Assembly (NCBI GenBank): GCA_016194585.1
Contig: JACQBG010000024.1
Span: 1-64,000 of the forward strand
From: Gemmatimonadota bacterium
GTDB lineage: Bacteria > Gemmatimonadota > Gemmatimonadetes > Gemmatimonadales > Gemmatimonadaceae
Reading direction: 5' to 3'
Length of the DNA: 64,000 nucleotides
The notes under the pieces are model-generated. The model was given only the letters and a program-made list of their open reading frames with translations. It did not search any database and was not told the origin of the DNA. The translations under genes and the position numbers were made by a program. Positions 2,196-15,467 of this stretch are shown here, piece after piece. How positions within the stretch are numbered: the first letter of the stretch is position 1; each line of letters begins with the position of its first letter.

Positions 2196-2321
2196 ACCGC
2201 GGAGGACGCAGAGGACGCAGAGGAGGACGATAGCATGAGGCGGGAACACGCCGGTGGAGCGCCTCCCTCGGCGTCCGCCACGCCCTCTACCTCCCTCTGC
2301 GTCCGCTGCGTCCTCTGCGGT
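2196..2321. repeat. Long imperfect inverted repeat of GGACGCAGAG units in a divergent intergenic region
   Basis: The left arm (2196-2226) is built from GAGGACGCAGAGGACGCAGA. The right arm (2290-2321) is its reverse complement with two mismatches and one extra base. The arms are about 31 bp long and 63 bp apart, enough to form a long hairpin. The region lies between the divergent genes starting at 2116 (minus) and 2383 (plus). Similar purine-rich units reading roughly ACCACAGAG...GACACAGAGG occur as dispersed elements in many environmental bacterial genomes and are often mis-annotated as EDAEDAEE-type proteins. I saw no second copy in this window. Confidence 0.8.
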
Positions 2322-2382: not shown

Positions 2383-4458
2383 ATGGCTCCGCACCGCCGC
2401 CTCCTCGCCCTCGCGCTCCTCGCCTCCGCCTGCGGTGGTGCATGGCGCCCCGACGATTCCATCGCCGCGGCGCGCACCTTCGACGTCCGCATCCTGCGCG
2501 ACACGTTCGGCGTGCCGCACGTGCGCGGCCACACCGACGCCGACGTCGCGTTCGGCGTCGCGTATGCGCAGGCCGAGGACGACTGGCCGACGCTCGAGCA
2601 GGTGTTCGCCGGCACGCGGGCGCGGGCCGCGGCGCTGGTCGGCAAGGACGGCGCCGGCGTCGACTACGTGATGCACCTCCTCCGCGTCCGCGAGGACATC
2701 GCCGCGAAGGCGCGCACCGACATCGACTCGGCCACGTGGAAGCTCGTCGACGGCTACGCCGCCGGCATCAACTACTACGCCGCCCGGCATCCGGCGGAGG
2801 TCTCGGGCGTCGTGCGCGCCCTCCTGCCGATGACAGGGGCCGATGTCGTCGCGGGCTTCGTCCTCAAGTCGCCCTTCTTCTTCGGCTTCGACGCGGTACT
2901 GAACGCGCTCGTCAACAACACGCCCATCCCGCACGCGTACGAGGAGAAGGGGTCGAACGGGTTCGCCGTCGCCCCACGACGCTCGGGCGACGGCGTGACG
3001 CGGCTGCTCAGCAACTCGCACCAGCCGTGGACGGGCGCCGTCGCCTGGTACGAACTCTCCGTGCACAGCGACGAGGGGCTCGACTTCGCCGGCGCCAACT
3101 TCCCGGGCGCGCCGCTTCCGCTCCTCGGGCACAACGCGACCCTTGGCTGGACCAACACCGTCAACAAGCCCGACCTCGTGGACGTGTACCGCCTGCGGAT
3201 CAATCCGGGGGACAAGGATCAATACTGGTTCGACGGCGCGTGGCACGACCTCGAACGCGAGCGCGTCTGGTTGCACGTGAAGTTCGGCCCCATCACCGTG
3301 CCCGTGCCGCGCATGGTGTACCGCTCGGTGCACGGCCCGGTCATCCGGAACGACTCCGGCACTTTCGCGCTGCGCTACGCCGGCATGGACGACGTGCGCC
3401 CGGTGATGCAGTACTACCGCATCACCAAGGCACGCAGCTACGACGAGTGGCGCGCGGCGATGAAGCTGCAGGCCATCCCGGCGACGAACTTCATCTACGC
3501 CGACTCGACGGGGCGCATCGCGTACGTGTACAACGCGGAGTTCCCGCGCCGCCGGCCGGGCTACGACTGGCGCGGGATCCTCCCGGGCGACACGTCCGCG
3601 ACCCTCTGGAACGGCTACGTCCCCTTCGACTCCATCCCGCAGTACGTGAGCCCCAAGTCGGGCTACCTGTTCAACTCGAACAACACGCCGTTCGTGGCGA
3701 CCTCGCCGTCCGACGCGCTCAAGCCGGCGGACTTCCCCGACTGGATGGGGATCGAGCGCGGCATGACCAACCGCGCGCAGCGCGACGTGGAGCTGCTCGA
3801 CTCGGCGCGCGTGATCTCGCGCGACGTGCTGCTCGCCACGAAGTTCGACGTGTCGTACAGCCGGCGGTCGTGGGTGGGACGTTGGCTCGACGCCGTCGCC
3901 AGGGTGGACCCGCGCGGCGACGCACGGCTGGCCGACGGGCAGCGGCTGCTCGCGACGTGGAACCTGACGATGAGCGACAGCCAGCCGGCGAGCGTGCTCG
4001 GCGCGATGACCATCGGGCCGGCGTCGCGCGCCATCAACTTCGGCGGCGACTTCCCCGACGCACGCGAGACGCTGAAGAGCGCCGTCGACTGGCTGATGGC
4101 GACGCACCAACGGCTCGATCCCCCGATGCACGACGTGATCGTCGACGAGCACGGCGCGACGATCGATCCGGTCGTCGGCGCACCCGACCTGCTGCGCGCC
4201 GTGTACTTCACGCGCGACGCGCACGGCCACCTCGCGGGGAATGCCGGCGACTCGTTCATCATGCTCGTCGAGTGGGGGCGCGACGGCGTGGTGCACTCCC
4301 AGAGCATCCACCAGTTCGGAGCGGCGACGTCGCGCCCCGGATCGAAGCACTACGCCGACCAGATCCCGCTCTTCGTCGCGCGCCGGTGGAAATCCGTGCC
4401 CTTCACGGAGGCAGAGCAGCGCTCGATGCTCGAACGCGAGTATCGCGTGGGGCGCTGA
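2383..4458 (+). CDS. Penicillin acylase family N-terminal nucleophile hydrolase (lipoprotein)
   Basis: A 691-residue secreted Ntn-hydrolase of the penicillin amidase family. The signal peptide ends in a lipobox (ASAC, Cys17). The family opening motif RDTFGVPHVRG is at 39-49 and the A-chain contains FGVAYAQAEDDW. The autoprocessing site is EEKGSNGFAVAP: cleavage after Gly190 would expose Ser191 as the N-terminal nucleophile of the B-chain. Downstream NSHQPW and NATLGWTNT are also typical. Length fits the family (about 700-800 aa). Relatives hydrolyse amide bonds in penicillins, cyclic lipopeptides or acyl-homoserine lactones; the natural substrate here cannot be read from sequence. It stands alone, divergent from the hydrolase gene ending at 2116, with a GC-rich hairpin after its stop. 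Confidence 0.93.
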   Translation: MAPHRRLLALALLASACGGAWRPDDSIAAARTFDVRILRDTFGVPHVRGHTDADVAFGVAYAQAEDDWPTLEQVFAGTRARAAALVGKDGAGVDYVMHLLRVREDIAAKARTDIDSATWKLVDGYAAGINYYAARHPAEVSGVVRALLPMTGADVVAGFVLKSPFFFGFDAVLNALVNNTPIPHAYEEKGSNGFAVAPRRSGDGVTRLLSNSHQPWTGAVAWYELSVHSDEGLDFAGANFPGAPLPLLGHNATLGWTNTVNKPDLVDVYRLRINPGDKDQYWFDGAWHDLERERVWLHVKFGPITVPVPRMVYRSVHGPVIRNDSGTFALRYAGMDDVRPVMQYYRITKARSYDEWRAAMKLQAIPATNFIYADSTGRIAYVYNAEFPRRRPGYDWRGILPGDTSATLWNGYVPFDSIPQYVSPKSGYLFNSNNTPFVATSPSDALKPADFPDWMGIERGMTNRAQRDVELLDSARVISRDVLLATKFDVSYSRRSWVGRWLDAVARVDPRGDARLADGQRLLATWNLTMSDSQPASVLGAMTIGPASRAINFGGDFPDARETLKSAVDWLMATHQRLDPPMHDVIVDEHGATIDPVVGAPDLLRAVYFTRDAHGHLAGNAGDSFIMLVEWGRDGVVHSQSIHQFGAATSRPGSKHYADQIPLFVARRWKSVPFTEAEQRSMLEREYRVGR

Positions 4459-4520: not shown

Positions 4521-4547
4521 GCCGCTCAACAGCGCCGGAGGATGCCG

Positions 4548-5990
4548 ATGTGCGTCGACCGTGATGAGAGGCAGCCGGGAGATCGCCGCGACTCGATCGA
4601 TCGACGCTCGCTGTTGCGCGCCGCCGCGGCCTCGGTCGCGCTGAGCGCACTCGGCCCGTCGTGGCTCGCCGCGGCGAGCAGCGCGAGGTCACTCGAGGCC
4701 GACGACCGCTACCTCGACGCCGCGCGCAAGGCGGAGCGCTGGATCGCGCGCGCCGCGATCCGCGACGAGCGCGGGATCACCTGGCCCGCCGACCCGCTCG
4801 ATCCCAAGACGGTGCAGAACAACCTGTACTCCGGCAGTCCGGGCGTGCTCCTGTTCTATCTCGAGCTGCATCGTGCCACGGGGGACGCGGCGCTCCTCGA
4901 GACGGCGCGCGGTGCGGCCGACTACCTCATCGCCACGCTGCCGAATCGCGGCGCCCCGCTCCGCGACGAAGACGCCGGCCTCTACACCGGCATCGCCGGC
5001 GTCGCCTACGCGCTCGCGCTCACCGCCGACGCGACGCGCGACGCGAAGTACGAACGCGCCGTGCGCCACATCGGCACGCTGCTGCGCGAAGGACTGGTAG
5101 CGAAGGGCGCCGGCGCGGCGTGGAACGACTCGAACGACATCATCTCGGGGTCGAGCGGCGTGTTGCTGGCCCTGCTCTGGCTCGAGGGGCGCGACCCGGC
5201 GTGGCGCGATTGGCGCGACGCCGAGCCGCGCGTCGTGCGCGCGCTCGTCGATGCCGGCACGGCCGAGCACGGGGGACTCAAGTGGGGCGCCGGGCCGGCG
5301 CTGCCGCGGCGCTATCCGAACTTCTCGCACGGCACAGCGGGCGTCGGCTACGCCCTCGCGACGTTCGCCGAGCGCGACCCGCGGAGCGAGGTGTCCAAGG
5401 ACGCGCTCGCGGCGGCGCTCGCCGGTGCGACCTATCTCGACGCCATCGCCACGGACATGCCGGACGGCGGCCGGAAGATCTTCCACGACGAGCCGGGGGG
5501 CGAACAGCTCTACTATCTGAGCTGGTGCCATGGACCGGCCGGCACGTCGCGGTTCTATCAGCGACTGGCGTAGGCGACGCGCGACCGGAAGTGGGCGGGC
5601 TACGTTCCGCGATTCGCTCAGGGGATCATCGGCAGCGGCGTGCCCGAAGTGCATCCCGACCGCTCCGGTTACTGGAACAACATCTCGCAGTGCTGTGGCA
5701 ACTGTGGCGTCGCCGAGTTCTTCCTCGCGCTGCATGCCGCGCATGGCGATCCCGAACGTCTCGCGTTCGCGCGCCGCGTGATGGACGACGCGCTCGGCCG
5801 CGCGACCGTGGACGGTGACGGGCTCAAGTGGACGCAGGCGGAGAACCGGGTGAGTCCGCTCGACGTGGTCGCGCAGACGGGACTCATGCAGGGAGCGGCG
5901 GGCGTCGGCCTGGCGCTGCTGCACCTCGACGGCGCCATCCGTGGGCGGGCGCCCCTCGTCGCCCTGCCCGACGCGATCTCGTACGCCTGA
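4548..5990 (+). pseudogene. Exported LanC-like (lanthionine synthetase C family) protein interrupted by an in-frame TAG
   Basis: One continuous reading frame of 481 codons broken by a single TAG at 5571-5573 (codon 342). The N-terminus has a Tat-like signal (DRRSLLRAAAASVALSALG), so the protein would be exported, unusual for a LanC fold. GxxG-type repeats of the alpha-toroid are visible (SGSPGVLLF, TGIAGVAYAL, SGSSGVLLAL, SHGTAGVGYAL). The zinc site is split by the stop: SWCHGPAGT (Cys327) lies before it and SQCCGNCG (Cys382-Cys383) after it. Canonical LanC has CHG at the second site; CCG is the variant known from ProcM-type enzymes. The start at 4548 is preferred over the ATG at 4542 because GGAGG lies 6 nt before it. 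Without readthrough the product ends before the second zinc motif. No RiPP precursor or other lanthipeptide gene is adjacent. A sequencing error or GAG-to-TAG mutation would explain the break. Confidence 0.85.
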
Positions 5991-6059: not shown

Positions 6060-8042
6060 ATGGCCAGCGACGCCGCTTCCACCGTCCCGACCGCCCCGCC
6101 TGACGCGGCACAGATCGCGCCGGCGGAGAGCACGCTGCACGGGCACGTCGAGGCGAATCCCACCGGACGCCGGCTCGGGGTGCTCGCGCTGACGGCGCTC
6201 GGCGTCGTGTACGGGGACATCGGCACGAGTCCGCTCTACGCGTTCCGCGAGTGCTTCAAGCCCGAGTACGGCATCTCGCCGACGCCGCGGCACGTCTACG
6301 GCGTGCTCTCGTTGATCGTGTGGGCGCTCACGATGGTCGTGAGCGTGAAGTACATCGTGTACGTGATGCGGGCCGACAACCGGGGCGAAGGCGGGATCCT
6401 CGCGATGCTGGCGCTGATCGTGAACCAGAACACGACGCGTCACCGTCGCCGGCTGATCCTCATCGCGCTCGGGCTGTTCGGGGCGGCGCTCCTCTATGGC
6501 GACGGCGTGATCACCCCCGCGATCACGGTGCTGGGGGCGATGGAAGGGCTCGAGGTGGTCACGCCGCGCTTCGCGACGCTCGTCATCCCGCTCACGCTCG
6601 CCGTGCTCGTGGGGCTGTTCCTGATGCAGCGCCTCGGCACGGCGCGCATCGGCGCGGCGTTCGGTCCGCTCATGCTCGTCTGGTTCGGCGCGATCGCGCT
6701 GCTCGGCGGCACCGAGATCGTCCGCGCGCCCGGGATCCTCACGGCGGTGAACCCGTGGCACGCCGTGCGCTTCTTCCTCGAAGAGCGCACGGCCGCGTTC
6801 ATCCTGCTCGGCGCGGTGGTGCTCGCGGTGACGGGCGCCGAGGCGCTGTACGCCGACATGGGGCACTTCGGCAAGCGCCCCATCCGCCTCGCCTGGTTCT
6901 GGTTCGTGTTCCCCTGCCTCCTGCTGAACTATTTCGGACAAGGCGCGCTCGTGCTGCGCGATGCGACGGCGGTCGCGAACCCGTTCTACCTGCTCGCGCC
7001 GCGCGCCATGCCGTACCCGATGATCGTCATCGCGACGATCGCGGCGATCATCGCGAGCCAGGCGCTCATCTCGGGCGCGTTCTCGCTCACGCAGCAATGC
7101 GTGCAGCTCGGGTACAGCCCGCGGGTCACGATCATCCACACCTCGGCGCGCGAGGCGGGGCAGATCTACATCCCCGAAGTGAGCCACGCGCTGCTCGTGA
7201 GTTGCCTGCTCGTGGTGCTCTTCTTCAAGACGTCGAGCGCGCTCGGCGCGGCGTACGGCATCGCCGTCACCGGCACGATGGCGATCACGACGCTCCTCTT
7301 CGTGGTCGTCGCCGCGCGCCGGTGGCAGTGGCCGCGCTGGAAGGTGTTCGGGCTGGCCGGCGTCTTCCTCGCGATCGACCTGCTCTTCCTCGGCTCCAAC
7401 GCGCTGAAACTCGGGAACGGCGGCTGGGTGCCGCTCGTGGTCGCCATCTCGCTCTTCCTGATGATGACCACCTGGAAGCGCGGTCGCGAGATCCTGCGCG
7501 AGCGCCTGAAGGACATCGCGATGCCGCTCGACGAGTTCCTCGCCACGCTGAGCACGAGTTCGATCCCACGCGTGCCGGGGACGGCGGTGTTCATGACGTC
7601 GGAGCCGAAAGGCGCGCCGGTGGTGCTCCTGCACCACCTCAAGCACAACAAGGTGCTGCACCAGCGGGTGATCCTCATGTCGATCCAGACCGAGGACGTC
7701 CCCGAGGTCGCCGCCGCGTCGCGCGTGTCGGTGGAGCGGCTGCCGCATGACTTCGTGCGCGTCATCGCGCGCTACGGATTCATGGAGTCGCCGAACGTGA
7801 AGGACATCCTGCAGCAGCTCGCCCGAGCGGGCATCCGCACGCGAGCGCTCGACACGAGTTACTACCTGGGCCGCGAGCAGCTCATCCCGCTCCCCGGCCC
7901 GTGGAAGGAAGGCGGCATGACCATGAACATCTGGCGCAAACGACTGTTCGCCGTCATGTCCAAGAACGCGCGCTCGGCCGCCGAATTCTTCCGGCTTCCG
8001 CCGAACCGCGTCGTCGAACTGGGCACGCAGATCGAGTTCTGA
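6060..8042 (+). CDS. kup: Kup-family low-affinity potassium uptake protein
   Basis: A 660-residue inner-membrane K+/H+ symporter of the KUP/HAK/KT family. After a 38-residue hydrophilic N-terminus comes the family signature VVYGDIGTSPLYAFRE, then KYIVYVMRADNRGEGGILAM. About a dozen hydrophobic segments run to residue 490 or so, including GAALLYGDGVITPAITVLGA and GAEALYADMGHFGKRPIRLA. A cytoplasmic C-terminal domain (FMTSEPKGAPVVLLHHLKHN and PNVKDILQQLARAG) completes it. Length and order are typical of full-length Kup. The next gene (MgtC/DUF4010) starts 14 nt downstream with its own GGAG, so the two ion-related membrane proteins are probably co-transcribed. Confidence 0.97.
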   Translation: MASDAASTVPTAPPDAAQIAPAESTLHGHVEANPTGRRLGVLALTALGVVYGDIGTSPLYAFRECFKPEYGISPTPRHVYGVLSLIVWALTMVVSVKYIVYVMRADNRGEGGILAMLALIVNQNTTRHRRRLILIALGLFGAALLYGDGVITPAITVLGAMEGLEVVTPRFATLVIPLTLAVLVGLFLMQRLGTARIGAAFGPLMLVWFGAIALLGGTEIVRAPGILTAVNPWHAVRFFLEERTAAFILLGAVVLAVTGAEALYADMGHFGKRPIRLAWFWFVFPCLLLNYFGQGALVLRDATAVANPFYLLAPRAMPYPMIVIATIAAIIASQALISGAFSLTQQCVQLGYSPRVTIIHTSAREAGQIYIPEVSHALLVSCLLVVLFFKTSSALGAAYGIAVTGTMAITTLLFVVVAARRWQWPRWKVFGLAGVFLAIDLLFLGSNALKLGNGGWVPLVVAISLFLMMTTWKRGREILRERLKDIAMPLDEFLATLSTSSIPRVPGTAVFMTSEPKGAPVVLLHHLKHNKVLHQRVILMSIQTEDVPEVAAASRVSVERLPHDFVRVIARYGFMESPNVKDILQQLARAGIRTRALDTSYYLGREQLIPLPGPWKEGGMTMNIWRKRLFAVMSKNARSAAEFFRLPPNRVVELGTQIEF

Positions 8043-14741: not shown

Positions 14742-15467
<726 letters not shown>

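Follow-up and report, generated by a model that had tools for sequence, protein, structure and literature searches.

A single in-frame TAG in the gene of a predicted Tat-exported LanC-like protein of Gemmatimonadota: a probable fresh lesion or misreading rather than a recoding site

The gene at positions 4548–5990 of the forward strand is best read as a recently disrupted, or misread, version of a gene for a Tat-exported, three-cysteine LanC-like zinc protein. With good confidence, it is an accessory, stand-alone member of a Gemmatimonadota family of such proteins, interrupted by one TAG that is not a programmed recoding site. The gene is found in the window (the whole 64,000-nucleotide stretch of DNA that was analysed), which lies in a 98.6-kb contig of an assembly of 3.34 Mb in 50 contigs that is 98% complete. 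The TAG itself is ordinary. The more interesting part is the exported LanC-like family with its CCG motif, which is open to study in the intact relatives, and these suggest an exported enzyme family that has received little study.

Translation of 4548–5990 gives exactly one internal stop, the TAG at 5571–5573 (+), which is codon 342 counted from 4548. The LanC-like frame is open on either side of this codon and ends with the TGA at 5988–5990. Upstream, the truncated ORF (4548–5573, +) encodes a Tat-type signal and the N-terminal part of the LanC-like domain, and it matches PF05147 (LANC_like) over profile positions 3–234 (E=1.7e-25, 89.8 bits). Downstream, the remaining frame (5574–5990, +) is still conserved and matches profile positions 261–337 (E=8.9e-6, 25 bits). 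Each half separately exceeds the curated cut-off of 23.2 bits, and the score reaches 115.3 bits when the TAG is bridged. Because the matches on either side are consecutive parts of the profile, the continuity of the frame across the TAG is not a matter of chance, and the gene product belongs to the LanC-like superfamily. The sequence-only reading was thus right in describing a continuous frame with a single TAG at 5571, and also in stating that this stop parts WCHG from CCG: the Cys codon of the former is at 5526–5528 (+), before the TAG, and the Cys codons of the latter are at 5691–5696 (+), after it.

The start of the gene can also be placed. A GGAGG resembling a ribosome-binding site, at 4537–4541 (+), is 6 nt from the ATG at 4548 and 0 nt from 4542, the mechanical start of the ORF. 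This spacing, in addition to the Met-Cys beginning of several relatives, makes 4548 preferable to 4542. Such a beginning, in which Met-Cys stands a few residues before the twin arginine (MC...RR), is observed in the window protein read from 4548 and in L079, L081, L092 and L141–L147. Re-initiation after the TAG, at the GTG at 5640, was considered and rejected, as this codon is devoid of a well-placed ribosome-binding site.

With the TAG read as Glu, the AF2 model of the protein (mean pLDDT 71.9, built on three sequences) is an (alpha/alpha) toroid. It matches the structures of CuvL (Z 33.5), NisC (31.9) and LanCL2 (31.5), while the best match outside the LanC superfamily is a GH47 mannosidase (Z 21.8). 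These matches and the PF05147 scores bear out the LanC fold proposed for the product. In addition, a profile of 14 family members matches the structures of CuvL, NisC, LanCL2, LanCL1 and LicM2. The His of NFSHG (5328–5330, +; H263 when numbered from 4542) is invariant and aligned with the catalytic acid, His212 in NisC and His219 in LanCL1. The WCHG motif, which provides the first predicted zinc ligand, is likewise invariant, and in the alignment it coincides with the first of the zinc cysteines and with His277 of LanCL1; the roles of the catalytic acid His, the zinc Cys and His277 in LanCL1 are taken from PMC9934072. The third zinc ligand of the family is predicted to be a Cys, which differs from the canonical Cys-Cys-His set of LanC and LanCL proteins, and both cysteines of CCG, the second and third ligands, are invariant in alignment A1. 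A product ending at the TAG would lack the second and third zinc ligands as well as the final portion of the toroid. It is therefore expected to be inactive, and the interruption would amount to a loss of function.

The closest known systems share only some of these features. Like the present protein, LanC and LanCL enzymes (NisC 2g02, LanCL1 8czk and LanCL2 6wq1) are stand-alone toroids (Z 29–32) with the aligned acid His and WCHG. In contrast to them, the present family has Cys instead of His as third zinc ligand and a conserved Tat-type signal, and no adjoining lanthipeptide genes were seen. The best fold match, the class IV-type synthetase CuvL (8car, 8cav), carries a TQCCG that is aligned with the QCCG found here, but it is multi-domain and much longer (about 860 aa in the solved chains), whereas the protein studied here is a single, apparently exported domain. 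As the sequence-only reading had stated, the CCG variant is known in ProcM-like LanM enzymes, where it is associated with zinc-binding sites (PMC10783134). Nevertheless, ProcM is a multi-domain lanthipeptide synthetase with a dehydratase domain and modifies prochlorosins, whereas the present protein is stand-alone, bears an export signal and has none of these. An exported LanC-like protein need not share the chemistry of ProcM.

The intact family could alternatively consist of other alpha/alpha-toroid enzymes, for instance GH127-like cysteine glycosidases, rather than thiol-addition enzymes. The toroid is common to many glycosidases, and there is a sub-threshold Pfam match to GH127 (E=2.3e-4). 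However, LanC, LanCL and LanM structures outscore all the glycosidases listed, and neither the acid His typical of LanC nor WCHG varies within the family, which makes a glycosidase family unlikely. In GH127 enzymes, a Glu located two positions ahead of the first Cys takes part in the zinc site; in the present family, the position that would correspond is Ser or Gly.

The twin-arginine signal region, RRSLLRAAAASVALSALGPSWLAAAS, extends over 4602–4680 (+). The combination of a twin-arginine motif and a hydrophobic stretch recurs in 31 of 32 family members, so that the Tat-type signal noticed earlier is upheld and export looks inherited. In L021, which is the same gene as L086, the motif first picked was false, and the true one is SRREVL. 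TatC is encoded in the genome. Judging from these signals, the product would be periplasmic or located at the cell surface. The LanC and LanCL enzymes known so far are cytoplasmic, and nothing relevant about an exported LanC was found in the literature searched. The Gemmatimonadota relatives form a real family, as they have in common the toroid, the WCHG...CCG arrangement and, with the one exception, the twin-arginine signal.

A working scheme can be proposed for the intact protein. It would fold and load zinc on its three cysteines in the cytoplasm, and the folded, zinc-loaded protein would then be exported by Tat. The thiol activated by zinc may then add to an electrophile, either in the periplasm or on the cell surface, in a thia-Michael reaction such as those of LanC and LanCL enzymes. 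Zinc binding is a prediction here, and thiol addition is proposed by analogy with the cytoplasmic enzymes. As Tat exports folded proteins, a thiol-rich zinc site could receive its metal ahead of any exposure to the oxidising periplasm. No genes for lanthipeptide precursor peptides or dehydratases were seen in the inspected flanks, and no LanM, LanL or LanKC was found, since this is the only LANC_like protein found in the genome. Tentatively, there may be in Gemmatimonadota a lineage of LanC-like enzymes with three cysteines that are exported by Tat and perform zinc-thiol chemistry outside the cytoplasm without a lanthipeptide pathway. If this is true, it would be a compartment for LanC proteins that was not found reported in the literature searched, and the substrate of the family would tell whether dehydroamino-acid or other electrophile chemistry occurs beyond the cell membrane.

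Regarding the TAG, three explanations had been offered at the outset: a recent null mutation, a sequencing error and programmed readthrough. The first two still stand and, taken jointly, are very likely indeed to include the right one; either would be an ordinary event. Among 21 aligned relatives, all have a sense codon at this place (GAG, GAT, CAG, CGC and others), encoding E in five, R in four, Q in four, D, A and V in two each, and N and T in one each. The interrupted column is therefore variable. In the four nearest relatives, the codon is GAG (Glu) in L079 and L081, from another genus, and GAT (Asp) in L078 and L080, from the same genus. Glu is a plausible original residue at codon 342; the earlier expectation of GAG holds for L079 and L081, although the column is not fixed and also admits D, R, N, A, V, T and Q. 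None of the relatives examined, at 41–61% identity, has an internal stop, and the inspected frames run uninterrupted to their ends. In about ten relatives, all of genus g74, an apparently conserved in-frame TGA had suggested a selenoprotein, but this idea was rejected. The TGA is the normal C-terminal stop, right after LPDDPW, and it appeared internal as the profile match ran on past it.

The sequence after the TAG is as well conserved as that before it. The window gene keeps 26 of 27 invariant residues after the TAG and 41 of 42 before it. Identity to the three nearest lineages is 67–75% after the TAG versus 57–60% before, while in pairwise comparisons of L078, L079 and L081 the two sides of this position differ little. 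GC3 is also similar (0.87 after, 0.90 before), and the tree branch of the window gene (0.43) is not unusually long relative to the median end branch (0.39). With one of 27 invariant codons changed, any neutral drift that followed inactivation is limited to about 0.08 changes per site; the lack of additional stops after the TAG provides a weaker bound. Consequently, given the conservation after the TAG, the bound on drift and the ordinary branch, the interruption is either very young or not real.

A genuine nonsense mutation, in which GAG or another one-step codon became TAG in this population while an accessory gene is being lost, has about an even chance of being the explanation. The column is variable and the codon can be reached in a single step. 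Moreover, the gene is patchily distributed in the genus, with a homologue in 4 of 18 genomes. In the window, it is flanked by a penicillin-amidase-type gene (2383–4458) and the potassium transporter gene kup (6060–8042). Both flanking genes have their closest copies in the close relative G017 (80% identity for the amidase; 84 and 91% for pieces of kup), where about 140 bp separate them and neither a LanC gene nor a trace of one intervenes; this genome is only 78% complete, but the amidase–kup site is covered. In G006 and G008, the LanC-like copy is elsewhere and not beside kup. From this distribution, the empty site and the displaced copies, the LanC-like gene is accessory. On the other hand, the zero decay signal after the TAG means that such a mutation must be very recent, with fewer than about 0.08 neutral changes per site since it arose, and no feature sets it apart from an error.

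An error of assembly or base calling, or a minority variant taken as the consensus, would imply that the actual gene is intact. This is a realistic explanation, at somewhat less than an even chance. The assembly, in 50 contigs, is probably a metagenome assembly, conservation after the TAG is complete, and TAG is a single base away from the GAG of L079 and L081, which are among the nearest relatives. Against it, there is no sign of poor assembly nearby, and a coding-potential scan of the window yielded no other clear stop-cut gene: of the sites that scored higher, those at 15465 and 299 seem to be places where adjacent genes meet, and the one at 7166 lies antisense to kup.

Programmed readthrough or recoding of the UAG to produce the full-length enzyme is, by comparison with both, highly improbable. 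Efficient readthrough would also leave the downstream frame preserved, and this frame does look constrained; in addition, the TAG column tolerates many residues. Nevertheless, TAG is a normal terminator that ends 11 of the 38 called genes of the window, no relative examined has a stop at this place, and the RNA around and after the TAG folds no better than shuffled sequences (z=0.4 to 0.8). The amber suppressor tRNA or genomic recoding that had been raised alongside readthrough did not come to light either. No tRNA with a CTA anticodon was found among the tRNA genes detected in the assembly, evidence that is strong but not absolute, since this set lacks a few expected tRNAs (e.g., Cys and Phe) and a suppressor gene could in principle sit in a gap of the assembly. 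The match to PylS scores only 22.8 bits, where the cut-off is 178, and sub-threshold matches are observed in most control genomes too. Literature searches returned nothing relevant on readthrough in Gemmatimonadota.

Among the named relatives of the protein in the GTDB collection, the closest comes from a Gemmatimonadetes MAG. No gene neighbourhood common to the window and the relatives was found. In some relatives (L079, L081, L085, L086, L089 and L090), a HerA-like helicase and/or short PQQ-propeller-like neighbours are located near the LanC-like gene; these are absent from the window. Elsewhere in the window, 302–2443 (−) encodes a large protein without a Pfam match that contains a twin-arginine-like stretch, SRRDWLTIVGAAGAGAALPASG, and whose translation probably begins at a more internal codon than the first one of the ORF. 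Finally, short inverted repeats of the CCGCAGAGGACGCAGAGG type lie between two genes, at 2197–2223 (+) and 2294–2320 (−). There are four matches versus 0.25 expected by chance, and the repeats look like a dispersed intergenic element.
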